Assembly (NCBI GenBank): GCA_903930515.1
Contig: CAIYYW010000283.1
Coordinates: forward strand, 1 to 26,895
From: an uncultured delta proteobacterium
GTDB lineage: Bacteria; RBG-13-61-14; DRUE01
Length of the DNA: 26,895 nucleotides
Direction of reading: 5' to 3'
Shown in pieces: positions 9,028 to 25,747 of the stretch. Positions within the stretch are counted from its first letter, which is position 1. Every line of letters begins with the position of its first letter. Position numbers and translations under genes: made by a program. Under the pieces are notes generated by a model. That model worked only from the letters and a program-made list of their open reading frames with translations, ran no database searches and was not told the origin of the DNA.

Positions 9028-9483
9028 TCAAAAAACCGGCTTAAAATATTTTATGTTCAGGATTCCGGCCTTGGGCTGATCGGCAAAGACCGGCTCAACC
9101 TCCATCCCGATCTTCACCTTTTGCGGGTCAATCTCTCCGATCAGATGGGTCAAATCGGAATCCGCTCCCGAAAGCCGGATCAAGGCCATCACATAGGGCG
9201 GCTCCATCGGAAGATAGGGCTCTTTATATCTGACGATGCAAAAGCTGGTCACTTTACCCTTCGGGCCTACTTCCACCCAGTCCTGGATTTTGACAAAGCA
9301 TTGCTCGCAATTGGACCGCGGTGGGATGAAGACCTTGTTGCAGGCCGGGCATTTGGAGCCGAGGATTTTCTTCTCATCCCGGAGGGTGGTCAAAAACCTG
9401 GAGCCGCACTCTCCGGCAAAATACCGATAGGGGACTTCCAGCTTGCCCGGAACCTCGTAACACCATTTGTCTTGTTCGCTCAT
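9028..9483 (-). CDS. DUF35 zinc-ribbon/OB-fold acyl-CoA-binding protein (first of two)
   Basis: A 151-residue DUF35 protein: an N-terminal helix, a rubredoxin-like zinc ribbon (CPACNKVFIPPRSNCEQC, residues about 45-62) and an OB-fold (about 65-150). Proteins of this family bind the acyl-CoA and bridge active sites in thiolase-fold complexes, such as archaeal thiolase/HMG-CoA synthase, BbsAB and the Ltp2-ChsH2 steroid aldolase. It is the last gene of the operon that carries two thiolase-like genes and a second DUF35 gene, so it probably binds one of them. ATG at 9483 is preceded by CGGAGGAGCGAAA. Its 3' end is A/T-rich without a GC hairpin. Confidence 0.88.
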   Translation of the reverse strand: MSEQDKWCYEVPGKLEVPYRYFAGECGSRFLTTLRDEKKILGSKCPACNKVFIPPRSNCEQCFVKIQDWVEVGPKGKVTSFCIVRYKEPYLPMEPPYVMALIRLSGADSDLTHLIGEIDPQKVKIGMEVEPVFADQPKAGILNIKYFKPVF

Positions 9484-9538
9484 TTTCGCTCCTCCGTGGC
9501 GCGGATATTCCGGTCCGCGCGCAATTTCTTTTCCGCGC

Positions 9539-10018
9539 TCATTCCGTGATCACCCGGAAATAAAGGATGTCGGTCACCCGTCCCTCCCGCTCTCCGTCCG
9601 GCCGGAACACCGCCTCGCATCTCATTCCCATTTTCAGCTTCTTGGGATCGGTCAGATCCAGGTAATGCATAATGGTGGTGTCCCCTCCGTCCAAAAGAAT
9701 GCTGGCGGTGGTATAAGGCACCTCGCGCATCTTGCCGGTGAGCGGGTTCAGGGTCGGCACATAAGTGACATCGTAGCTCATCACCTCGCCGGTGTTCTTG
9801 AGCTCAATCCAGTCGTCCACCTGGCAATGGCAGGCCGCGCACACGATCCTGGGCGGAAGCTGGGTCCGGCCGCATTGCGGACATTTATTCGCCATAATCC
9901 GCTTGTTGTCCCGGATCTCGGAAAGGAACCTGCCCATGGTCGGCCCGGTGGAGAACTTATGCGGAACGCTCACCAGCTCGGTGATCTCCACCAGTTCCTG
10001 TTTTTTCTCTTCAGCCAT
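9539..10018 (-). CDS. DUF35 zinc-ribbon/OB-fold acyl-CoA-binding protein (second of two)
   Basis: A 159-residue DUF35 protein with helix, zinc ribbon (CPQCGRTQLPPRIVCAACH, about residues 47-65) and OB-fold. It differs clearly from its neighbour at 9028-9483 in the OB-fold, so the two are not a recent duplication; each may match one of the two thiolase-like proteins. GGAGGGAAAAA precedes the ATG. It lies 52 bases after the Lys-rich end of the thiolase-like gene. Confidence 0.88.
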   Translation of the reverse strand: MAEEKKQELVEITELVSVPHKFSTGPTMGRFLSEIRDNKRIMANKCPQCGRTQLPPRIVCAACHCQVDDWIELKNTGEVMSYDVTYVPTLNPLTGKMREVPYTTASILLDGGDTTIMHYLDLTDPKKLKMGMRCEAVFRPDGEREGRVTDILYFRVITE

Positions 10019-10070
10019 TTTTTCCCTCCTGAATATTTCAGTATGACCGGCTCAAGCGCCGTCCCGGCGG

Positions 10071-11420
10071 TTATCTTTTCTTGCCCTTTTTCACCTTGAT
10101 CTTGACCGCCTTGGATTTCTTGGCTTTGATCTTGATTTTCATCTTTGCTTTTTTCTCTTTCTTTTTATCGGGTTTTGCCCTTTTAACTTTTTTACTTTTT
10201 GGCTTTTTAACCGTCTTAGCCTTAATTGCGGGAACCGCAACTTTGACCGAATTCATTCCATCCAGGTTTTTCTTGAGAAGAGTGAGCACGGTCCAGAAGG
10301 TTCCGCCGAACCCGCTCGCCATTGCCACCTTGATCTCCCCCGGAACCTGGTGCTCGCCGGCGTCTCCTCTGATTTGCAGGCCGGCCTCAGCCACCCGGAT
10401 CAGCGCGGAGGCCCCGATCGGGTTGGTGCTCACCACCCCGCCGCTCGGGTTGATCGGGAATTCGCCCTCAATATTGAACGCTCCCCGCTCCACCATCTCC
10501 AGCACGGTCTTGCGGTCCAGGAGCAGGAAATTGACGATCCAGTCAATCAGCCACCAGGAGGACGGGTCATACATTTCAAACACGCCGATTTCCTTGAGCG
10601 GGTTCTTGATCCCGGTCTTCTTAAACAGCCTCCTTGCCGCGATCTCCTGCGTGAGCGGGTCTTTCCTCGGACCGCCCCGGAAAAAGGTTTCTTCCCGATG
10701 CATCGTGATATGGTCCCAGACCCAGACCGGCTTTTGCGGAAATTTCCTCGCCAGATCCTCGCTGGCGAAAATCACCGCGCAGGCCCCGTTGGATTCCGGG
10801 CACATATGCAACAGCCGGAGCGGATATGCCAACAGCCTGGAATTCATCACTTCCTTCTCGGTAATGTTGATCCGGAGATGCGCCTTGGGGTTGCGCCGGG
10901 CGTTGTCCGCCATCAAGACCCGGAGCTTGGCCGCGGCCCATTCCGCGCGCTCTCCGAACTCGTTGACCCATTCCAGGCCGGTGGACCCGGTGATCGCCCC
11001 GGTCTGAATCTCTCTCATCCAGAGCGGGTCCGCCATATTGGTGATCCCGGTGGTGGTATGTCCCTCTTCCTGCTTCTCAAAACCGAGCGCCATCACCACA
11101 TTATAAAAACCGCTCGCGACCAGATTGTCCGCGGCGCAGGCGATGGTTGCTCCGGTGGTTCCGCCGGTGGTGATCCGGAAGCCGCTTTTGAGGAACGCGC
11201 CGTCCCCGAGGGTGTGCCACATATCCGGCTGATGGATTCCCTCAAACAGCTCCATATCGCCGTGGACCACGCAGTCAATATCCTTGAGCGACAAGCCGGA
11301 ATCTCGGAGCGCGTCTTCCACCGCCTCCCGCACCAGCTCGGCCTGATTGATATCCGGCCGATGCCCGCGGTGCTTGCTCTGACCGATCCCGACGATCGCT
11401 ACCTGCCTATTTTTCGCCAT
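10071..11420 (-). CDS. SCP2/thiolase-fold protein without canonical Cys/His, with Lys-rich tail
   Basis: Residues 1-390 are a thiolase-superfamily protein of the SCP-x/lipid-transfer type (MALGFEK near 110, NPSGG near 324). Aligned by VASG and its fixed distance to the catalytic site, the nucleophilic Cys position is Gly87 (TTGGTTG), and the GHP His motif is replaced by STNP (Asn333, one residue shorter). The usual Claisen/thiolysis chemistry is therefore unlikely. The DUF35 neighbours recall the Ltp2-ChsH2 aldolase, another thiolase-fold enzyme without these residues. The last 58 residues form a histone-like tail with 28 Lys, odd for this family. The start at 11420 (GAGGAGGAGAG upstream) is chosen over the open frame to 11558, which overlaps the previous gene. 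It lies 11 bases after that gene. Confidence 0.85.
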   Translation of the reverse strand: MAKNRQVAIVGIGQSKHRGHRPDINQAELVREAVEDALRDSGLSLKDIDCVVHGDMELFEGIHQPDMWHTLGDGAFLKSGFRITTGGTTGATIACAADNLVASGFYNVVMALGFEKQEEGHTTTGITNMADPLWMREIQTGAITGSTGLEWVNEFGERAEWAAAKLRVLMADNARRNPKAHLRINITEKEVMNSRLLAYPLRLLHMCPESNGACAVIFASEDLARKFPQKPVWVWDHITMHREETFFRGGPRKDPLTQEIAARRLFKKTGIKNPLKEIGVFEMYDPSSWWLIDWIVNFLLLDRKTVLEMVERGAFNIEGEFPINPSGGVVSTNPIGASALIRVAEAGLQIRGDAGEHQVPGEIKVAMASGFGGTFWTVLTLLKKNLDGMNSVKVAVPAIKAKTVKKPKSKKVKRAKPDKKKEKKAKMKIKIKAKKSKAVKIKVKKGKKR

Positions 11421-11431
11421 TTCTCTCCTCC

Positions 11432-12586
11432 TCACTGATTGGAAAGGATCATCACGCAATGGTGCTGGCCGGCCGGGCCGGTTGCTCCGTGCGCCAGCGC
11501 GACTTTGGCGCCATTGACCTGGCGCTTTCCGGCCTCGCCTTTGAGTTGAATCACGCACTCAGCCGCGCGCGCCATCCCGGCAATCATCAAGGGATTCCCG
11601 CTCAACATCCCGCCCGAAGTATTGACCGGAAGCTCTCCTCCCAGATCAGTCGCTCCGCTCATCACAAAATCTCCGGCCTTGCCCGGAGCGCAAATCCCGA
11701 GGGATTCCAGGAATAAAAGCTCCTCGTAGGAATATCCTGCGCTGATCTCCAGCAGGTCCAGTTCCTTTTTCGCGTTCCGGATCCCGGCCATCTGGTAGGC
11801 CCGCTTGGCCGCCAGCTTCAAGCTCGCGGATTCCCAGAGCTTGCGGTCGCCAAGATAGTAAGCGTCATAACAATTGCCCGCGCCCAAAATCCAGACCGGC
11901 TTCTCGCAGAGCTTCTTCGCCCGGCTTTCCTTCGCCACGATGAACGCCACGGCCCCGTCGCTGACCGGATAAATCTCCATCTCCCGCAAGGGATCGCAAA
12001 CCATCGGCGAATTCAAGACCTGATCCACCGTGACCTCTTTCCGGAGTTGCGCCTTGGGATTCAGCGTCGCGTTCTTCCGGTCCCGGACCACCGCCCTTGC
12101 AACCGCCTCCGGCTTCACCCCAAAACATTCATAATACAGACGCGCCTGGAGCGCCGCGGCATTGAGATAGTCCAGCCCGACCTGGCGGGAAAAAATCGGA
12201 TCAAACGCGCAATGCGTGATCATATTGCGGCTCGCGCATTGGCTTTCCTTGCAATGCCCGGCCACAATCGTGATCTCGGAATGACCCGAAGCCACGCAGG
12301 CCGCGGCGTAAAAAAGACCCTGAATCCCGTCCTGCGCCGCCTTTTCCTCCGAGCCGTAATGCGCGCCCACCAGGTCCCCGATCGGCGCGTCGGAAATGGT
12401 CCGGCAGTCAAAGAAATCGTCCGAGCAGGTCACCGCATTGTCAATCTGACCCGGGCCGAAGCTTAAATTAACCTGGCCGCGCGCCTCTTTGATCGCCTCC
12501 CAGATCATCTCCTGGAACCGCTGGTTCCGCTTATGCGGCTCAAACCGGGTCTGAGCCATCGCGATTATTGCTATCCGTTCCGCCAT
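11432..12586 (-). CDS. Second SCP2/thiolase-fold protein without canonical Cys/His
   Basis: A 384-residue thiolase-fold protein, first gene of the operon. The start at 12586 has an excellent AAGGAGGT 8 bases upstream. The Cys position aligns with Ala in KAAQDGIQG, and the GHP His motif reads SGNPLM (NTSGGMLSGNP), so both canonical residues are missing, as in its neighbour. The C-terminal VALAHGATGP is the usual HG-x-GG-like loop in altered form. It shares the superfamily with the downstream protein but little close sequence, so the two probably form a heteromer, completed by the two DUF35 proteins. The substrate is unknown; an acyl-CoA thioester is likely from the family. Ordinary acetyl-CoA acetyltransferase annotation would be misleading. 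Confidence 0.85.
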   Translation of the reverse strand: MAERIAIIAMAQTRFEPHKRNQRFQEMIWEAIKEARGQVNLSFGPGQIDNAVTCSDDFFDCRTISDAPIGDLVGAHYGSEEKAAQDGIQGLFYAAACVASGHSEITIVAGHCKESQCASRNMITHCAFDPIFSRQVGLDYLNAAALQARLYYECFGVKPEAVARAVVRDRKNATLNPKAQLRKEVTVDQVLNSPMVCDPLREMEIYPVSDGAVAFIVAKESRAKKLCEKPVWILGAGNCYDAYYLGDRKLWESASLKLAAKRAYQMAGIRNAKKELDLLEISAGYSYEELLFLESLGICAPGKAGDFVMSGATDLGGELPVNTSGGMLSGNPLMIAGMARAAECVIQLKGEAGKRQVNGAKVALAHGATGPAGQHHCVMILSNQ

Positions 12587-12798: not shown

Positions 12799-14763
12799 TT
12801 AAAGACTAATCTCTAATTTTATCACGCTCACCTGGAAGGGTTTGAGGGAGATGGTGAGGCCGGCGGGATTCAGGTTGGAGGCGGTGGGGTAGAGTTGGGA
12901 GGCGGCGGAGATATTTTTTAGGCCGAGTTTAGTGGGGGAGAGGGTGAGGGATTGGGGCTGGCCGGAGGGGTTTCGGAGGACCAGGAGGGCTTGAGCGTCT
13001 TTCTGGTGCAAGTATCCGTATATTTCCAATTGGTTCGGATTGCCGAGGACCATTTGGGTGTTCTGGAGGATAGCCCGGTTTTCTTTTGCCCAATTGATCC
13101 ATTGGGCAAGCGCGGCCCATTCCTGATCGGTGAGCAGGTCGGGCGAGATGTATAGTTCCCACATTGAGACGCCTCTTCCGAGATACATAATCAGATCGCG
13201 CTCGAATTCGGCAATCGGTCCGGGGTCCTTGAAATTGGAATTGGCTCGGATGATTCCGTGGGTCATCAGGCCGTTGAAGGGGACCTGGAGATTGGGCTGT
13301 TTCAAATAATGATAGATGTTCTGATCGCGATAGGTGATGGACTTTTCTCGGGCCGAGCCCGGCCCCTGGAACCCGTAATCCATTCCGCCGAGCCAGACGC
13401 AATCGGCCCATAACAGCCAGAAGGGGCTGAGCCAGGTTCCGACCGTTATGTTGAAGAAGGCGTCGGGGTTGATCTGATGGGAGGCATTGATGGTCTGGAT
13501 CAGGGCGTCGGTGACCGCGGTTTGGGAGGCCTCGGGAAGCGGGTGGCTGTGCCAAGGAACTCTGCAGGCGGCGCCGATATTGTCCAGCTTGAAATAGGAC
13601 ACGCCGGCCCGGGTCGCGGTGACGATTTGTTTCTGAAATTCCTGGTGGTATTTCTCTCCGGCAGGACAGAAGCCATTGGCGATGATATTGGCTGAGATCC
13701 AATTTTTTTCATAGCCCTGTCCGAGGGTCCAAAGGAGGCGCTTGAGTTTCCGGTTGCCGTATCCTCCGGCCGGGCTGAACCACATCCCGGGTTGGGCGCC
13801 GACGGCTTCCGCGCTTTTTTTGACGGCCGCGATTCCCTGGGGGAATTTTTCCGGATGGAACTGCCATAGTTTGGAGAAATTGTCCCAGCCGTCATCAATC
13901 ACCACCGCGTCCAGCTTGATCCCGTAAGGGTCGGAAAGATGATCTTTCAGTCCCTGGATGGAATTGATCAGGCCGGTTTGGTTGACCGACCCGGGCATAT
14001 CATACCAGGAATTATAGAGAAGGTAGGGCGCGGGCCGACGGTGTCTTTTTTCGTCCAGATATTTGAAGAACCACTTGCCGGTTTGATCCGGCTCCGAGAC
14101 CCCGAGCACGGCCGGGTAGGCCTGAAAAAGCTCCGGGGTGATCCATTGGCCGGGCTGGTAGCAGATGGAAATATTCCGGCCGGAAATTTTGGCCTCGGTC
14201 AGCGGATAGGCGACGGCGAAAAAGAGGTTCCCCGCATAGACCGGCTGACCGGGGGAGGGAAAAGTTATGGCGGTTCCGGTTCTGCCCGCCTGGGAGTCAA
14301 CCAGGCAGATTTTTTCCAGGAACTTTTTATCCCGCTCGGTTCTGAGCAGCAAAGTTTTCTCCACTGCGATTCCGGATTCGGAGATTTGAAAATCTAGCCG
14401 GCCGGCCAGGCCGTCCCCATCGTCCTTGAGATAAAAGCTCAACCTTCCCGGCGTTTTTTCCGCCCGATCCACCAGGAATTCAGAGGCCTGGACGGTTTTT
14501 CCGCGGAAGTAAAGGATAAATTGCTCGCCCTCCAGGGAACTGGTTTGATGGATGATCCGATTGCTGACCGCCAGATGATAAAGATGTTTTTCCTGGACGC
14601 CGATGGTGAAGACGAGCAGGGGGCTTTGCAACTCATACAGGTCCAGGTCCAGGCTGGTTTCCTTTTTCAAGCCGGTCGGCTGAGTTTGAGCCGGCACCCA
14701 GCCGGCCAGGGCGAGGATCAGGATCAGAAATCCGGCCGCGCTGAAAAAGGTTTTTTTATACAA
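12799..14763 (-). CDS. Secreted GH36-type (alpha-galactosidase clan) glycoside hydrolase
   Basis: A 654-residue protein with a signal peptide (YKKTFFSAAGFLILILALAG...PAQ). An N-terminal beta-sandwich is followed by a TIM barrel with DAVVIDDGWDNF near residue 290 and the GH-D-clan nucleophile motif FKLDNIG (Asp394). The acid/base is probably Asp454 or Asp462 (WADCVWLGGMD). A beta-sandwich closes the C-terminus. Best described as GH36/GH27-like, acting on alpha-galactosides or a related sugar. The start is uncertain: a TTG at 14763, four bases after the SDR stop and 9 bases behind AGGGAG, gives a clean signal peptide. The ATG at 14796 overlaps the SDR gene and adds 11 acidic/basic residues before the signal. 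Third gene of the Gfo/SDR operon. Confidence 0.82.
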   Translation of the reverse strand: MYKKTFFSAAGFLILILALAGWVPAQTQPTGLKKETSLDLDLYELQSPLLVFTIGVQEKHLYHLAVSNRIIHQTSSLEGEQFILYFRGKTVQASEFLVDRAEKTPGRLSFYLKDDGDGLAGRLDFQISESGIAVEKTLLLRTERDKKFLEKICLVDSQAGRTGTAITFPSPGQPVYAGNLFFAVAYPLTEAKISGRNISICYQPGQWITPELFQAYPAVLGVSEPDQTGKWFFKYLDEKRHRRPAPYLLYNSWYDMPGSVNQTGLINSIQGLKDHLSDPYGIKLDAVVIDDGWDNFSKLWQFHPEKFPQGIAAVKKSAEAVGAQPGMWFSPAGGYGNRKLKRLLWTLGQGYEKNWISANIIANGFCPAGEKYHQEFQKQIVTATRAGVSYFKLDNIGAACRVPWHSHPLPEASQTAVTDALIQTINASHQINPDAFFNITVGTWLSPFWLLWADCVWLGGMDYGFQGPGSAREKSITYRDQNIYHYLKQPNLQVPFNGLMTHGIIRANSNFKDPGPIAEFERDLIMYLGRGVSMWELYISPDLLTDQEWAALAQWINWAKENRAILQNTQMVLGNPNQLEIYGYLHQKDAQALLVLRNPSGQPQSLTLSPTKLGLKNISAASQLYPTASNLNPAGLTISLKPFQVSVIKLEISL

Positions 14764-14767
14764 AAAT

Positions 14768-15541
14768 TTAAGCTCCCTTGAGACCGGTTCCTCCATCCAC
14801 CACGATCATCTGGCCGGTGATATATTTGGCGGCCGGGCCGGCCAGGAACACCACCGCCCCGACCACATCGTCCGGCTCGCCGAGCCGGCCCAGGGCGCTG
14901 GATTGCTCCACCACCTTGCGGATGAAATCGTTTTTCCAGATCGCCTCGCTGAATTTGGTCTTGATCACCCCGGGCGCCACCGCGTTCACGCGGATGCCCT
15001 TTTCTCCCAGCTCCGCGGCGAGCACGCGGGTAAGCATCAGCAGTCCGGCCTTGGAGATGCTGTAAACCCCCAGTCCCATCATCGGCTTGAGGCCGGCCAC
15101 GCTCGCGACATTGACAATCGCCCCTCCGCCCTTCTCCGCCATTTTTGCCGCAACCAGCTTGGAAAGAAAAAATGGCCCCTTCAGGTTGACTTCAAAAATT
15201 TTGTCCCAGGCGCCCTCGTCGGTGTTGATGGCCGGCCCGAACACCGGGTTGGTCGCGGCGTTATTGACCAGCACATCTATTTTCCCGAACTGCTGGATCA
15301 CCTGGTCCACTAACTTCTTCCGGTCCTCTTCCTTGCCCACATGACAGGCAATCGCGCAGGCCTTCCCGGACTTGCCCTGCAGATTGCAGGCCACCTTGTC
15401 CAAAGCGTCCTGCTTGCGGCTGGTCAAAACCACACTGGCGCCCAAATCGCAAAAAGCCCCGGCCACCGACTCGCCGATCCCTCGGCTGGCCCCGGTGATC
15501 AGGACCACCTTTCCGGAAAAATCAAACCACTCCTTAATCAT
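14768..15541 (-). CDS. Short-chain dehydrogenase/reductase (FabG-like SDR)
   Basis: A 257-residue classical SDR with all catalytic elements: NAD(P)-binding TGASRGIG (residues 16-23), NNAA (93-96), Asn119, Ser147, Tyr160 and Lys164 (YSISK), and a C-terminal VDGGTGL. It oxidises or reduces a hydroxyl/keto group. FabG-type acyl chemistry is possible, but the neighbours (Gfo/Idh oxidoreductase upstream, GH36-type glycosidase downstream) favour a sugar or polyol substrate. Ser41-Arg42 after the second beta strand (LTSRKQ) suggests NADPH preference, which is inference. An 18-base gap separates it from the Gfo gene. Confidence 0.9.
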   Translation of the reverse strand: MIKEWFDFSGKVVLITGASRGIGESVAGAFCDLGASVVLTSRKQDALDKVACNLQGKSGKACAIACHVGKEEDRKKLVDQVIQQFGKIDVLVNNAATNPVFGPAINTDEGAWDKIFEVNLKGPFFLSKLVAAKMAEKGGGAIVNVASVAGLKPMMGLGVYSISKAGLLMLTRVLAAELGEKGIRVNAVAPGVIKTKFSEAIWKNDFIRKVVEQSSALGRLGEPDDVVGAVVFLAGPAAKYITGQMIVVDGGTGLKGA

Positions 15542-15559: not shown

Positions 15560-16597
15560 TTATTCCCGATCTTGATAGCGGGGCGCGGACACCCGCTGGA
15601 TTTCTCCCACCTTGACCACTCTTCCTTTTTTCAACGAGGCGATCCCGGCGCAACAGGCTTCCACCACCGGGTAACATTCCTCGGCCGCGGGCGGAAAATC
15701 TCCTTTGCCCAAAACCGCCCGGTTGAAATTCTCCGCCAGAATTTTGTATAAATCAACCGGCTCGTATCGCTTCTCCTCGCCCCGGCCGCCCGAACGCCGG
15801 ATCAGCTTGAAGGTTCCGTCCCCGTCCGGCCAGTTGATCTGCGCCTGGATTTGTTTCCCGGTCCCCTGGATCAAAAGGAAATTGGTCTCCCCGGCCGAGA
15901 TATTATTGGAAGAGGCGATGCCGGTGGCGCCGCCCTCGAAGTTGATGGAAACGCTCACCGCGGTGTTGACGCAGTCGTCGCTCTGACCGCCTGTTCCCAG
16001 GGCGGAAACCTCGCGGGCCCTTTTCCCGATCATCCAGAACAACAGGTCCAGCCCCTGCAACCCCAGGTCCATCATACACATCGGCCCGGAATGGAATTGG
16101 TCCCGCCACCAGGCCTGCTCCGGGGCCTTGCCCCGGCTCAGGTAAACATATGCCTGGATCAATTCCCCCAACTCCCCCCGGCTTAGGTCGTCCTTCAATT
16201 CCTTCAAAGCCGGATGATGCCGGAGCGGGAAGCAGGTCCCCAACCGAACTTCTTTCCTGGCCGCAGCCTCCGCCAATTTATGCGCGCCGTCAACGCTCAA
16301 TGCGATCGGTTTTTCCACCAAAACATTCTTGCCCGCCTCCAGCGCCTTGAAGGCCTGCGGGGTATGGAGATGGTGCGGGGTGGAGATGTAAACCACCTGG
16401 GCCTCCGGGTCGTCCAGGAAATCGCTGAACTTGCCGAACCCCTTGACCCCCAGCTCCTGCTCCGCTTCTGCGACGCGCTCGGGGCAGGAACAGCAGACCG
16501 AGACGATCTCAATCTCTTTGATCTTTTTCAGGGCCGGGACCATCCTTTTGCGCGCCTGCTCGCCCAGGCCCACGATCCCCCATTTCACCGCGTTCAT
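15560..16597 (-). CDS. Gfo/Idh/MocA-family oxidoreductase
   Basis: A 345-residue NAD(P)-dependent sugar or cyclitol dehydrogenase-like protein. Rossmann motif GIVGLGEQ (residues 7-14), STPHHLH (72-78) and the family signature EKP (95-97) are intact. The C-terminal domain has DLGLQGLD at 177-184 where most members have D-x-G-x-H-x-x-D; the catalytic His is Gln181. It may have an altered reaction or be a binding protein. First gene of an apparent operon with SDR and GH36-type genes. Its ATG overlaps the stop of a doubtful 69-codon open frame (TAATG), and GGAAG lies upstream. Confidence 0.87.
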   Translation of the reverse strand: MNAVKWGIVGLGEQARKRMVPALKKIKEIEIVSVCCSCPERVAEAEQELGVKGFGKFSDFLDDPEAQVVYISTPHHLHTPQAFKALEAGKNVLVEKPIALSVDGAHKLAEAAARKEVRLGTCFPLRHHPALKELKDDLSRGELGELIQAYVYLSRGKAPEQAWWRDQFHSGPMCMMDLGLQGLDLLFWMIGKRAREVSALGTGGQSDDCVNTAVSVSINFEGGATGIASSNNISAGETNFLLIQGTGKQIQAQINWPDGDGTFKLIRRSGGRGEEKRYEPVDLYKILAENFNRAVLGKGDFPPAAEECYPVVEACCAGIASLKKGRVVKVGEIQRVSAPRYQDRE

Positions 16598-21762: not shown

Positions 21763-22335
21763 ATGACGATCAAAGGAAGCAAGACCGAGAAGAATCTGTT
21801 AAAGGCCTTTGCCGGGGAGTCTCAGGCCCGGAACCGCTACACCTATTTCGCGGGCCAGGCGCGTAAGGAAGGGCTGGAGCAGGTCGGTTTCATTTTTGAG
21901 GAAACCGCGAACCAGGAAAAGGAGCACGCCAAGAGGTTCTTCAGCTACCTGGAAGGGGGCGAGTTGGAAATACAGGCCGCGTATCCCGCGGGAAAAGTAG
22001 GGGCGACGCTGGACAACCTGAAGGCCGCGGCAGCCGGCGAAAATTTTGAGCACACCAAGCTCTACCCGGAATTTGCCCAGGTGGCCAAGCAGGAGGGGTT
22101 TGACGAAGTCGCGGAACTGTTCGTGCGGGTGTCGGTGGCGGAAAAATATCACGAGAAGCGCTACCGCGATTTTGCCGCGAACCTGGAATCCGGCCGGGTG
22201 TTCAAGCGCGATCAGAAAGTGGTCTGGCGCTGCCGGAATTGCGGATATTTGCACGAGGGTAAGGAAGCGCCGGAGATTTGCCCGGCCTGCAAACATCCCC
22301 AGGCCTATTTTGAGTTGAAGGGGGAAAACTGGTGA
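21763..22335 (+). CDS. rbr: Rubrerythrin (diiron peroxidase with rubredoxin domain)
   Basis: A 190-residue rubrerythrin that reduces hydrogen peroxide in the cytoplasm of anaerobes with electrons from rubredoxin. The diiron four-helix bundle has GESQARNRY (Glu near 19), ETANQEKEHAKRF (ExxH near 50) and VAEKYHEKRY (ExxH near 127). The C-terminal rubredoxin-like domain has CRNCGY and CPACK (about 157-180). Strong TTAGAGGAGGTAAGG upstream; the start is 16 bases after the pseudogene's last stop. First intact gene of the oxygen-defence series. Confidence 0.96.
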   Translation: MTIKGSKTEKNLLKAFAGESQARNRYTYFAGQARKEGLEQVGFIFEETANQEKEHAKRFFSYLEGGELEIQAAYPAGKVGATLDNLKAAAAGENFEHTKLYPEFAQVAKQEGFDEVAELFVRVSVAEKYHEKRYRDFAANLESGRVFKRDQKVVWRCRNCGYLHEGKEAPEICPACKHPQAYFELKGENW

Positions 22336-22352
22336 TTGAATGCGATAAACGG

Positions 22353-22386
22353 TTAAGGCCGCCGATGAATCGGTCTTGTGCCTTAA
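22353..22386 (+). promoter_or_regulatory. Two-part stem-loop between the rubrerythrin genes
   Basis: Outer stem TTAAGGC (22353-22359) with GCCTTAA (22380-22386); inner stem CCGAT (22362-22366) with ATCGG (22369-22373) and a GA loop. It lies 29 bases before the next start. There is no T run, so it is more likely an mRNA processing or stabilising element than a terminator. Confidence 0.45.
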
Positions 22387-22415
22387 GCCGTGCACCGGAA
22401 AAGGGGAGGGAATAA

Positions 22416-22910
22416 ATGGCCGACAAACTCAACGAGGCTTTTTATCAGGCCTATGAGGGGGAATCCAAGGCCGCGCTGAGGCTGAAGATTTATGCCAAGA
22501 AGGCGGAGCAGGAGGGGTATCCTCAGATGGCCAAATTGTTCCGGGTGATCGCGCTATCGGAGGAAGTGCACGGGGAGCGGAGTTTAAGGATGCTCCGGGA
22601 GATCAAGGGGACAGAGGACAATTTAAAATCAAGCTTTGAATCGGAAGCCAACATTGCGGGCGTGGCCTATGATCAATTCTTCAAGCTGGCCGCGGAGAAT
22701 GGGAATGCGGGGGCGGGAACCATTTTCAGTCAGAGCCGGGATGTGGAAGGGGGCCACGCCAAGCTCTACAAGGAGGCGATGTCTCACCTGATGGAGGAAC
22801 GGGAGACCACCTATTATATCTGCCAGGTCTGCGGGTATGTTTCGGACGGGATCTTGCCGGAGCAATGCCCGGTCTGCCAGGCGCCGAAAGAGCAATTTGT
22901 GAAGTATTGA
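22416..22910 (+). CDS. Second rubrerythrin-family protein
   Basis: A 164-residue protein with a shorter diiron bundle (GESKAALRLKIY; LSEEVHGERSL with ExxH; DVEGGHAKLY with ExxH) and a C-terminal rubredoxin domain (CQVCGYVSDG, CPVC). The bundle resembles the rubrerythrin variants that pair with the classical one in anaerobes. It probably also reduces peroxide. GGGGAGGGAAT precedes the ATG. It is clearly diverged from the gene at 21763-22335, so not a recent copy. 36 bases to the desulfoferrodoxin gene. Confidence 0.93.
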   Translation: MADKLNEAFYQAYEGESKAALRLKIYAKKAEQEGYPQMAKLFRVIALSEEVHGERSLRMLREIKGTEDNLKSSFESEANIAGVAYDQFFKLAAENGNAGAGTIFSQSRDVEGGHAKLYKEAMSHLMEERETTYYICQVCGYVSDGILPEQCPVCQAPKEQFVKY

Positions 22911-22946
22911 GTTGGGAAAATAAAACAACCGATAAAGGAGGGAAAA

Positions 22947-23321
22947 ATGGCGAAACGGCTGGAAATTTACAAATGCGATATTTGCGGGAACATCGTGGAG
23001 GTTCTGGACGGCGGGAAGGGGGAATTGGTTTGTTGCGGGGAGCCGATGACCCTGATGACCGAAAACACGGTTGACGCATCCAAAGAAAAGCACCTCCCGG
23101 TGATAGAGAAAGTGGAGGGCGGGATCAAGGTGAAAGTGGGGAGCGTTCCTCATCCGATGGAAGAGAAACATTATATTGAATGGATCGAGCTGATCGCGGA
23201 CGGGAAGGCCTACCGGGAATTCTTGAAGCCGGGAATGGCTCCCGAGGCCTTTTTCTGCGTCAAGGCCGAGAAGGTCTCGGCCCGGGAATACTGTAACCTT
23301 CACGGATTATGGAAGGGGTGA
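22947..23321 (+). CDS. dfx: Desulfoferrodoxin (superoxide reductase, class I)
   Basis: A 124-residue enzyme reducing superoxide to hydrogen peroxide without making oxygen. The N-terminal desulforedoxin domain has the Fe(Cys)4 ligands Cys10, Cys13, Cys29 and Cys30. The catalytic domain has the EKH-x-P motif (Glu47, Lys48, His49) and iron ligands His69, His75, Cys116 and His119 (YCNLHGLW). All active-site residues are intact. AAAGGAGG lies upstream, and the ferritin gene follows after 4 bases. Its product, peroxide, would be consumed by the adjacent rubrerythrins. Confidence 0.96.
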
Positions 23322-23325
23322 GAGG

Positions 23326-23880
23326 ATGTTGAACCAGAAGATAGAAGAGGCCTTTAACCAGCAGATCAACGCCGAGCTGTATTCCGCCTACCTCTATCTC
23401 TCAATGGCGGCCTATTGTGAATCCATCAACCTGCCCGGGTTCGCCCTCTGGCTCAAGGTGCAGACCCAGGAAGAGATCACCCACGGCCTAAGGCTTTACA
23501 ATTTCATCAATGACCGGAACGGAAGGGTGCGCCTGACCGCGATCGGCGCGCCTCCCAAGGAATGGGCCGGCCCGCAGAACGCTTTTGAGGAAGCCTATAA
23601 ACACGAGCAGATGGTCACCGGCCTGATCAACAGCCTGATGGACCTGGCCGACCAGGAACGCGATCATACCAGCTCGGTTTTCCTGCAATGGTTCGTAAAC
23701 GAGCAGGTGGAGGAAGAGGCGAATACGCTCAAGGTGGTTCAGAAACTCAAGCTGGCCAAAGATAATTCCAGCGCGATCCTGATGCTGGACCAGGAGATGG
23801 GGACCCGAACCTTTGTGATGGACCCGCTTCTGGGGCCGACCGTCGGGTTCGGAGGAGCCGGAGCAGGCGCCGGGGCCTGA
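23326..23880 (+). CDS. ftn: Ferritin (iron storage)
   Basis: A 184-residue non-haem ferritin of the FtnA type. Ferroxidase residues are visible: Glu17 (NAELYSAYLYLSM), Glu50 and His53 (QEEITHGLRLY), then Glu near 94 and QERDHTSSVFLQWFV near 122-135. It stores iron released or imported, limiting Fenton chemistry. The last 15 residues are Gly/Ala-rich (VGFGGAGAGAGA), unusual for ferritin. GAGAGG overlaps the end of dfx, so they are probably co-transcribed. An A/T-rich hairpin follows. Confidence 0.93.
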   Translation: MLNQKIEEAFNQQINAELYSAYLYLSMAAYCESINLPGFALWLKVQTQEEITHGLRLYNFINDRNGRVRLTAIGAPPKEWAGPQNAFEEAYKHEQMVTGLINSLMDLADQERDHTSSVFLQWFVNEQVEEEANTLKVVQKLKLAKDNSSAILMLDQEMGTRTFVMDPLLGPTVGFGGAGAGAGA

Positions 23881-23882
23881 GC

Positions 23883-23906
23883 AAAAGCCGGCTTTTTGGG
23901 CTTTTT
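23883..23906 (+). terminator. Candidate intrinsic terminator after ferritin
   Basis: AAAAGCC (23883-23889) pairs with GGCTTTT (23899-23905) around a 9-base loop that itself holds an alternative GGCTTTTT; both are followed by T runs. It may end or weaken transcription before the ferritin-like gene. It lies directly after the ferritin stop. Confidence 0.5.
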
Positions 23907-23951
23907 GAACCCGCGGGAGTCGGGGCAAAATTTTCTCTAAAGGAGATGACA

Positions 23952-24485
23952 ATGGGCGAGCGAGAAGAGCAGATGTTGAAAGTGTTCCGGATTGCCCTGG
24001 AGATTGAGGAAAAGGGAAGGGCCTTTTATCAGGGCGTGGCCGAGACCACCCAAAATTCCCTGGGCAAGAAGGTGTTCAAGATGCTGATGTCGGACGAGTC
24101 GGTCCACAAGAAGCGGATCACGATGGTTTATCAATCGCTGAGCCGGAATCAAGTCTGGTCCGAGGACTGGAAACAACAAAAGGTGGATCAGGGAGGCCCG
24201 CAAAAGATTTTCCGGGAACTGGGCAAGAAGCAATCGCAAAACCTGGAAACGGACGCCTCGGATTTGGCCGCTTTGGAAGTGGGGATCGGGCTGGAATTCG
24301 CTTCAATCAGCTTCTACCAGGAGCGGCTGAACCAGACCAAGGAAAAAATGGAAAAGGAATTCCTGGGACAGATGATCCAGGAAGAAAAAAACCACCACCA
24401 ACTGCTGGCGGATATGAAACTGTATCTCAACGACCCCTCGGCCTGGTTCATTGAAAAAGAGCGCCACGGCCTGGACGGCGTCTGA
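23952..24485 (+). CDS. Ferritin-like/rubrerythrin-type diiron protein without rubredoxin domain
   Basis: A 177-residue two-repeat ferritin-like protein. The first half has EIEEKGRAFYQ and SDESVHKKR, the second half GLEFASISFYQ and IQEEKNHHQL, each providing Glu and ExxH ligands for a diiron site. There is no C-terminal rubredoxin domain. It belongs to the 'rubrerythrin/YciF-like ferritin-like' group of unknown exact role, probably peroxide or iron handling. The start at 23952 is chosen because AAAGGAG lies 6 bases upstream; an ATG at 23946 touches the Shine-Dalgarno. Confidence 0.85.
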   Translation: MGEREEQMLKVFRIALEIEEKGRAFYQGVAETTQNSLGKKVFKMLMSDESVHKKRITMVYQSLSRNQVWSEDWKQQKVDQGGPQKIFRELGKKQSQNLETDASDLAALEVGIGLEFASISFYQERLNQTKEKMEKEFLGQMIQEEKNHHQLLADMKLYLNDPSAWFIEKERHGLDGV

Positions 24486-24544
24486 AAGCAAAAAGCTCAG
24501 CCAGGCGATAGGTCAACGCCGAACCGAATAAAAAGGAGGTCTTG

Positions 24545-25747
24545 ATGAATCAGCATTTGAAAGCGGTGAAAATTTCGGACAAGGTTTACTGGGTGGGAGC
24601 GATTGACTGGACGATGAGGGATTTCCACGGCTACCAAACCCAGCGCGGCTCAACCTATAACGCCTTTCTGGTGATCGGGGAAAAGCCGATCCTGATTGAT
24701 ACGGTCAAGGCCCAGTTCCGGGACGAGCTGCTCGCCAGGATCAGCTCGGTGATGGACCCGAAACGGATCCAAATCATCATCTCCAACCATACCGAGATGG
24801 ACCATTCCGGCTGTCTCCCTGACCTGATTGAGCTCGCCAAGCCGGAAAAGGTGTTCGCCTCTCCCAACGGCGCCGAGGCCCTGAATGAGCATTTCAAGAT
24901 CAGTCAGGAGATCATCCCGGTCAAGGACGGAGAAACCATGGACCTGGCCGGATTGAAATTCACCTTCCTGGAAGCCCGGATGCTGCACTGGCCCGATTCC
25001 ATGTTCAGCTACCTCAATGACGAAAAAATACTGTTTTCCTCCGATGCCTTCGGGATGCATCTGGCCAGCTCCGAACGCTTTGACGACGAGCTGGATCAGC
25101 CCGTCCTGGAATACGAGGCCGCCAAGTATTACGCCAACATCATCACGCTTTATTCCCCGATCGTGCTCAAGGCTCTGGAGCGGGTGTCCAAAATGGGCAT
25201 TGAGCTGAAAATGATCGCCCCGGACCACGGCCCGATCTGGCGCAAGAACATCAAGCGCGTCCTGGAACTGTATAAAAAATGGGCCGAGCAAAGGCCGACT
25301 AAAAAAGCCGTGGTGGTCTATGACACAATGTGGAACAGCACCGGCAAAATGGCCAAAGCCATCTCGGACGGACTAACCTCGGCCGGGATCAGCGTCAAGG
25401 TGATGAAGCTCCGCGATGATCACCGCTCCGATGTGGCCACCGAATTGCTGGACGCCTGCGCGCTCCTGGTCGGGTCCCCCACTTTGAACAACGGCCTGTT
25501 CCCGACTATGTCCGACTTGCTAACCTATTTAAAAGGATTGAGGTTCAAGAACAAAATCGGAGCCGTGTTCGGCTCTTACGGCTGGAGCGGAGAAGCGAAC
25601 CGGATTTTGAAAGAAAATCTGGAAGGAATGAAAATACCGGTCACGGCTGAAATCCAGAGCAAGTTTGTCCCGACCCAGGAAATGCTGGATCAATGCTTCG
25701 CTCTGGGGGGGCAGGTTGCGGAAAGGATCAAGGAAGTTGTTAAATAA
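24545..25747 (+). CDS. Flavodiiron protein (rubredoxin:oxygen oxidoreductase/FprA type)
   Basis: A 400-residue enzyme reducing O2 to water, or NO to N2O, with electrons from rubredoxin. The N-terminal metallo-beta-lactamase-like domain carries diiron ligands His82, Glu84, Asp86, His87 (NHTEMDHSG), His148 (MLHWPDS), Asp167 (SSDAFG) and His228 (APDHGP), all intact. A C-terminal flavodoxin domain (about 253-395) has the FMN phosphate loop YDTMWNSTGKMA. Start ATG at 24545, 4 bases after AAAGGAGGT, one codon downstream of a TTG. The rubredoxin gene follows, its natural electron donor. Confidence 0.95.
   Translation: MNQHLKAVKISDKVYWVGAIDWTMRDFHGYQTQRGSTYNAFLVIGEKPILIDTVKAQFRDELLARISSVMDPKRIQIIISNHTEMDHSGCLPDLIELAKPEKVFASPNGAEALNEHFKISQEIIPVKDGETMDLAGLKFTFLEARMLHWPDSMFSYLNDEKILFSSDAFGMHLASSERFDDELDQPVLEYEAAKYYANIITLYSPIVLKALERVSKMGIELKMIAPDHGPIWRKNIKRVLELYKKWAEQRPTKKAVVVYDTMWNSTGKMAKAISDGLTSAGISVKVMKLRDDHRSDVATELLDACALLVGSPTLNNGLFPTMSDLLTYLKGLRFKNKIGAVFGSYGWSGEANRILKENLEGMKIPVTAEIQSKFVPTQEMLDQCFALGGQVAERIKEVVK

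Follow-up and report, generated by a model that had tools for sequence, protein, structure and literature searches.

A widespread four-gene block with two Cys-less thiolase-fold proteins and two DUF35 proteins: a candidate heteromeric acyl-CoA retro-aldolase related to Ltp3-Ltp4

What might a bacterium do with two thiolase-like proteins that both lack the residues of a thiolase? This question is raised by four consecutive minus-strand genes, here called A, B, C, and D, on contig CAIYYW010000283.1 of an uncultured delta proteobacterium (GCA_903930515.1). The stretch that we analyzed, called the window, is 26,895 nucleotides long. A and B are predicted thiolase-fold proteins, and C and D are DUF35 proteins. 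On balance, we lean toward the reading that their products form one heteromeric acyl-coenzyme A (acyl-CoA) retro-aldolase that belongs, as a divergent member, to the Ltp3-Ltp4 type. The intergenic gaps are 11, 52, and 55 bases, and good, purine-rich ribosome-binding sites precede all four genes. A GTG at 11558 was rejected as the start of gene B because it is too early.

Pfam matched Thiolase_C_1 (PF22691) in A (8.6e-36) and B (9.9e-20), together with weak matches to Thiolase_N. C and D both exceeded the Pfam cut-offs for OB_ChsH2_C (PF01796; 2.9e-11 and 1.9e-15) and zf-ChsH2 (PF12172; 1.4e-6 and 1.2e-6). Each has a complete zinc ribbon, with four of four zinc Cys residues, plus an OB fold. 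This agrees with the original prediction, made from the letters of the window, that two DUF35 proteins accompany the thiolase-like pair. No NCBIfam model matched A or B at its cut-off. The best were PRK06066 for A and PRK08313 for B (298.7 bits against a cut-off of 514), and PRK07937 gave A 163.9 bits against a cut-off of 419.

Active-site columns were read from profile alignments to solved thiolases and from one joint alignment of 130 proteins, and family counts were taken over 53 B proteins and 55 A proteins. The nucleophilic Cys of the C-x-S-G loop is absent from A and B, and so are the HDCF (or NEAF) and GHP motifs. In the joint alignment, the three positions read C/H/H in canonical thiolases, G/Y/Y in Ltp2 (6ok1), G/Y/Q in Sal (9myr), and G/Y/N in B. 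B looks like the aldolase because its Tyr284 occupies the position of the catalytic base of Ltp2 and Sal (PMC12329534, which also describes the roles of Ltp2 Tyr294/Tyr344 and Sal Tyr302/Gln352). From the alignments, B appears to have swapped the thiolase site for an aldolase-type Tyr plus an amide residue. In A, the Gly87 that follows Asp86 (AAQDG) aligns with the nucleophilic Cys, and Ser282 stands at the HDCF His position, where the family has Ser in 36 and Tyr in 6 of the 55 proteins. Both His positions are variable across the A family. Conservation lies elsewhere, at R248 (52/55), E280 (54/55), and Q374 (53/55), and H111, mostly kept (42/55), has no nameable thiolase counterpart. A seems to have lost any recognizable site and gained private motifs. 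It is probably an obligate partner of B and looks like a non-catalytic or half-site one, which would make the two subunits nonequivalent.

These residues refine what had been predicted. Gly or Ala had been expected at the Cys position; alignment to solved thiolases shows the nucleophile replaced by Gly in both proteins. The expected Asn-Pro in place of Gly-His-Pro is there (B, TNP; A, GNP), although this Asn occurs in every B protein and in only some A proteins. Beyond that prediction, the HDCF His is also replaced, by Tyr284 in B and Ser282 in A.

Table 1. Genes of the block and positions of the residues and motifs discussed (window coordinates)
Feature	Position	Strand	Description
Gene A	11432..12586	-	384 amino acids; thiolase-fold partner subunit without catalytic Cys/His; relative of PRK07937/Ltp4-type proteins
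Gene B	10071..11420	-	449 amino acids; thiolase-fold, aldolase-type Tyr; probable catalytic subunit
Gene C	9539..10018	-	159 amino acids; DUF35, lineage d1 (zinc ribbon + OB fold)
Gene D	9028..9483	-	151 amino acids; DUF35, lineage d2 (zinc ribbon + OB fold)
B Gly87 (motif TTGGTTG)	11160..11162	-	Thiolase nucleophilic Cys position; Gly in 53/53 B proteins
B Tyr284	10569..10571	-	HDCF His position; equals Ltp2 Tyr294, CtSal Tyr302; Tyr in 52/53 B proteins
B Asn333 (TNP for GHP)	10422..10424	-	GHP His position; equals Ltp2 Tyr344, CtSal Gln352; Asn in 53/53 B proteins
A residues 80-87 (EEKAAQDG)	12326..12349	-	DG in place of thiolase Cys loop; D86 in 52/55 A proteins
A residues 55-65 (private motif SxDFLDGRTIS; window SDDFFDCRTIS)	12392..12424	-	D57 in 52/55, R62 in 48/55, S65 in 52/55 A proteins
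A Asn331 (GNP for GHP)	11594..11596	-	GHP His position; D 22, N 16, H 5 of 55 A proteins

AlphaFold2 models were obtained for A (predicted local distance difference test score [pLDDT], 85; predicted template modeling score [pTM], 0.89) and for B (pLDDT, 77.6; pTM, 0.78, lowered by its tail). In VIA-align comparisons, the A model matched thiolase 7yvy with Z 51.1 and a root-mean-square deviation (rmsd) of 1.6 over 355 residues, and the B model matched 6esq with Z 49.4 and an rmsd of 2.6 over 369 residues. Both models gave Z of about 40 to 51 against SCP2-type thiolases, PhlC, BbsB, Ltp2, and Sal, versus about 35 to 36 against ordinary thiolases. The models thus place A and B, over their whole length, in the SCP2-type branch of the thiolase fold, and on these comparisons fold alone cannot separate a thiolase from an aldolase. 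Low-confidence loops (A 61-67 and 118-138; B 58-69 and 119-139) contain conserved motifs. They may be interface loops, and they would equally fit a shallow alignment of 32 rows, so they were given no weight. The Lys-rich tail of B begins at about residue 390, beyond the thiolase fold, and nearly all relatives are without it. Its last 60 or so residues (window 10071-10250) have an extreme Lys/Ala/Val content, similar only in the nearest relatives.

The block is not peculiar to this genome. We collected 50 nonredundant A-B pairs from Bacteria and Archaea, mostly with two DUF35 genes, a recurrence across dozens of genomes that is far beyond chance. Forty loci came from a scan of named genomes, including deltaproteobacterial metagenome-assembled genomes (MAGs), Dehalococcoidia, other Chloroflexota, Archaeoglobus, Methanolliviera, and Acidobacteriota; Cupriavidus also carries an adjacent A-B pair. 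(The Cupriavidus, Natrinema, and Nocardia records have no gene table, and their open reading frames were called by script.) This genome has three such blocks, in the window and on contigs C127 and C156. The genes stand in the order A-B-d-d (d, a DUF35 gene); Archaeoglobi and some others have d-A-B-d instead. We rejected an artifact or gene decay, because dozens of genomes conserve A and B, which have acquired invariant residues of their own. The one long candidate for a natural A-B fusion (L076:1-2088) proved to be a canonical thiolase, and the reading upstream of it is unrelated.

In the tree, the A proteins form a clade (99%) and the B proteins a group (81%). Canonical thiolases lie outside both, as do Ltp2 and Sal, which form their own clade (99%), separate from B. 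The two histories mirror each other. A and B distances were correlated at r = 0.919, to which shared species history contributes, and 0 of 2000 permutations reached a value as high. The three paralogous pairs of this genome sit in matching clades of the A and B trees. The DUF35 proteins also fall into two lineages, d1 and d2, with one of each per block. C groups with other first DUF35 genes (d1) and D with other second DUF35 genes (d2), and the archaeal DUF35 gene ahead of A belongs to d2. A single fused protein carries both DUF35s in Streptomyces clavuligerus, Tsukamurella, and Nocardia. Paired inheritance plus this fusion is good evidence for one complex, although it does not prove a stoichiometry. 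The four gene products very probably work as one complex, as predicted, on this comparative sequence evidence.

The fused forms also point to a known relative. Nocardia farcinica (L084) has mce genes, two acyl-CoA dehydrogenases, acyl-CoA ligases, an Rv3520c-type F420 oxidoreductase (TIGR03559, 508 bits), a double DUF35, a PRK07937 protein (584.6 bits), and a PRK08313 protein (750.4 bits). Nocardia and Streptomyces proteins pass the cut-offs of both PRK models. The published order is Rv3520c, Rv3521, ltp4 (Rv3522), ltp3 (Rv3523) (PMC6429209). Because the gene order matches, we take the Nocardia locus to be the Ltp4-Ltp3 locus, a site of sterol degradation genes. The A-type proteins of Nocardia, Tsukamurella, and Streptomyces fall in the A clade (99%) and their B-type proteins in the B clade (81% to 98%). 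The window block therefore appears to be kin to the Ltp3-Ltp4 type, by clade and synteny and not by name model. Ltp3 and Ltp4 are essential for degrading the C24-branched sterol side chain, according to Wilbrink 2012 as cited in PMC6593523. Reviews propose that they are a heteromeric aldol lyase for C24-branched sterols, with roles that rest on gene deletions; the lyase would act after branch carboxylation and hydration, and the leftover carboxylate would need re-thioesterification (PMC6678751). The original prediction called the system possibly undescribed. That is not so for its actinobacterial counterpart, which is known genetically, but the literature that we found neither joins DUF35 and Ltp3/Ltp4 as a complex nor discusses the DUF35s or residues of that locus, and nothing in it covers the Archaeoglobus genes.

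How might the complex work? In the scheme that we infer, including its stoichiometry, chemistry, and substrate, A and B would form the thiolase-fold core, most simply as an A-B heterodimer. C and D, one DUF35 of each lineage, would flank the core and shape the CoA and substrate clefts, as DUF35 does in Ltp2-ChsH2. DUF35 is also a cleft-shaping scaffold in Sal-Shy (PMC12329534). B Tyr284 would deprotonate a 3-hydroxyacyl-CoA at its beta-hydroxyl. Cleavage between C2 and C3 would follow, with the enolate held by Asn333 and backbone amides, to give a carbonyl compound and acetyl-CoA (or propionyl-CoA). A, its own site lost, would contribute its private DFLDGRTIS and DG motifs, either structurally or as half of a site. 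Such chemistry would suit tertiary beta-hydroxyacyl-CoAs, which are beyond a dehydrogenase plus thiolase.

Several observations weigh against a retro-aldolase of this type. B is without the general acids of both model enzymes, having Pro286 for Cys304 of Sal and Asn333 for Tyr344 of Ltp2. It is not nested in the Ltp2/Sal clade, and the shared Tyr may have arisen by convergence. The window block and a same-genus copy have no catabolic neighbors, and no activity has been reported for any close relative. The link to the Ltp3/Ltp4 proteins themselves (Rv3523/Rv3522 and those of Rhodococcus) is drawn from Nocardia synteny. We also weighed other explanations. The block could encode two separate enzymes that act on successive substrates, each a homodimer of A or of B with its own DUF35, as in Ltp2-ChsH2 or Sal-Shy. 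The solved DUF35 aldolases do have homodimeric cores with two identical DUF35s, and two distinct DUF35 lineages are present here. However, the catalytic Tyr is missing from most A proteins, which have no recognizable site, A inheritance is tied to that of B, and actinobacteria have the two DUF35s in one protein; we consider this arrangement unlikely. It is also rather unlikely that the complex forms C-C bonds or acts as a decarboxylase, in the manner of PhlABC or the archaeal thiolase/3-hydroxy-3-methylglutaryl-CoA (HMG-CoA) synthase. PhlC, MucABC, and the thiolase/HMG-CoA synthase complex are among the fold neighbors, and PhlABC, too, is a multicomponent system in which one partner is inactive, but archaeal thiolase and PhlC keep Cys catalysis, and the neighbors of the block in relatives (ligase, dehydrogenases, hydratase, and beta-keto-acid cleavage enzyme) are catabolic. 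Of the predicted C-C lyase or ligase, then, the lyase (as a retro-aldolase) is favored and the ligase has no specific support, and the aldolase-type Tyr of B supports the predicted nonthiolase chemistry of the Ltp2 kind.

Improbable, too, is the idea that A and B are catalytically dead and form an acyl-CoA-binding scaffold for neighboring dehydrogenase, hydratase, or beta-keto-acid cleavage enzymes. The Cys and both His residues are lost, the neighbors are variable, and the strongly conserved noncanonical motifs could be interfaces. Against this, the near-invariant Gly-Tyr-Asn at the three active-site positions of B is what a changed site, rather than a lost one, would show, and several copies have no such neighbors. 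Least credible, and very improbable, is that B is still a thiolase with Cys207 as nucleophile. C207 is the only near-invariant Cys of B (52/53) and presumably corresponds to Zoogloea Ser247, close to pantetheine. However, ordinary Cys-nucleophile SCP2 thiolases also have Cys there (6hsj, CCPTSDGA), both activating His residues are gone, and this genome has separate canonical thiolases. A search for a Cys or His shifted elsewhere into the site was negative: C207 and H181 of B are near-invariant, but the same positions are occupied likewise in some Cys-bearing thiolases. A different Cys-less thiolase-like type occurs at L048:14392-15762 (DUF35 at 15774-16271), L034:6404-7702, and L035:7617-8876. 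It has one DUF35 each and a TGGATGG Cys loop, and unlike A and B it keeps HDAF and a GHP-type His (GHAVG; MHAVG in L048).

To what pathway might a retro-aldolase of A, B, C, and D belong? Acyl-CoA genes lie within 8 kb of 35 of the 50 loci. The neighbors include acyl-CoA dehydrogenase (22 loci), a beta-keto-acid cleavage enzyme (PF05853; 16), MaoC (9), and CoA-transferase (up to 7). A typical Dehalococcoidia set comprises an ADP-forming CoA ligase, three dehydrogenases, MaoC, A, B, two DUF35 genes, the cleavage enzyme, and a CoA-transferase. This genome has two cleavage enzyme genes in 3.65 Mb, one of them at the C127 block. Because they are so few, their recurrence beside A-B in several clades, including Archaeoglobus, is far above chance, although the 50 loci are not independent and no P value is given. 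No cleavage enzyme was found near the window block, which is without acyl-CoA neighbors, and we therefore infer its pathway from relatives. In Cupriavidus pBB1, the genes near A-B-d-d include two for ligases, one for a hydratase, and a separate one for a canonical SCP2 thiolase. Therefore, the block does not replace a thiolase.

The recurrent cleavage enzyme suggests a way to return the aldol-cleavage carboxylate to acyl-CoA, a step that must exist according to a sterol review that assigns no enzyme to it (PMC6678751). More tentatively, and with real doubt, these enzymes could act in series in an undescribed anaerobic C-C cleavage route. An acyl-CoA dehydrogenase and MaoC hydratase would yield a tertiary 3-hydroxyacyl-CoA with a carboxymethyl branch, which A-B-C-D would split, like HMG-CoA lyase, into a beta-keto acid and acetyl-CoA. 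The cleavage enzyme would convert these to a shortened acyl-CoA and acetoacetate, and the CoA-transferase would recover the acetoacetate. If so, anaerobes and Archaeoglobi could break down branched, isoprenoid, or sterol-like chains with neither oxygen nor thiolysis.

Other genes were noted along the way. The second cleavage enzyme of this genome (L087:4907-5782, contig C194) lies just after a radical-SAM gene that by eye resembles lysine 2,3-aminomutase, which suggests lysine fermentation. In three Chloroflexota loci (L047:6949-7914, L040, and L042), a 321-amino-acid protein just upstream of A recalls CrtC/AttH-type carotenoid hydratases, with no Pfam match at 1e-5, and may hint at an isoprenoid-like substrate. 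In the window, 12799-14796 encodes a 665-amino-acid protein that by eye is GH36/GH27 alpha-galactosidase-like (NSWYDMPG..VIDDGW; no Pfam match at 1e-5), and 21763-25747 holds an apparent anaerobe oxidative-stress cluster (rubrerythrin-like, desulfoferrodoxin-like, ferritin-like, and FprA-type flavoprotein genes).

The thiolase-fold aldolases are a small set, to which a heteromeric retro-aldolase would add an asymmetric form, widespread in anaerobes and archaea, that combines two subunits with two DUF35 scaffolds. It comes with testable residues (B Gly87, Tyr284, and Asn333; A DFLDGRTIS). It also bears on annotation, which had been predicted to read acetyl-CoA acetyltransferase. Annotation is indeed poor, but the only names given to such genes are thiolase domain protein and lipid-transfer protein, so thiolases may be overcounted when metabolism is reconstructed for Dehalococcoidia, Archaeoglobi, and sediment MAGs.

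Compared with known systems, B shares with Ltp2-ChsH2 the thiolase fold, Gly at the Cys position, the catalytic Tyr at the HDCF His position, and a DUF35 partner, and the steroid acyl-CoA retro-aldol reaction would be a further likeness. However, Ltp2-ChsH2 has a homodimeric core, Tyr instead of Asn at the GHP His position, and a DUF35 fused to a hydratase, and it lies in a separate clade. Sal-Shy has the same Gly and Tyr and an amide residue (Gln) at the GHP His position, but it is homodimeric, lies in a separate clade, and has an essential Cys304 in YDCY, where B has Pro. The benzoylsuccinyl-CoA thiolase BbsAB (7pxp) also combines an SCP2-type thiolase fold with a zinc-ribbon DUF35 in anaerobes, but it is a true CoA-dependent thiolase with one gene of each kind. 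NCBIfam scores were far under the cut-off for BbsB (116.6 for A and 89.2 for B, of 750 bits) and also fell short for BbsA (17 and 23.7 of 250 bits). PhlABC and the archaeal thiolase/HMG-CoA synthase are multicomponent thiolase-fold assemblies tied by DUF35, with PhlA an inactive partner, but they keep Cys catalysis, a KAS III-type partner, and one DUF35 type. Ltp3-Ltp4 (Rv3523/Rv3522 with Rv3521) differs in that the actinobacterial DUF35s are one fused protein with the zinc Cys residues partly lost, the actinobacterial A is about 30 amino acids shorter, and identity to the window proteins is about 30-38%. Even so, it is an adjacent Cys-less thiolase-fold pair with two DUF35 domains. In Nocardia, the A-type protein is PRK07937 and the B-type protein is PRK08313, beside an Rv3520c-type gene; the actinobacterial B has the Y/N pair, and the actinobacterial A has SSDYLAGRAFS and DG/DA. 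The mechanism proposed here would offer Ltp3-Ltp4 a concrete one as well.

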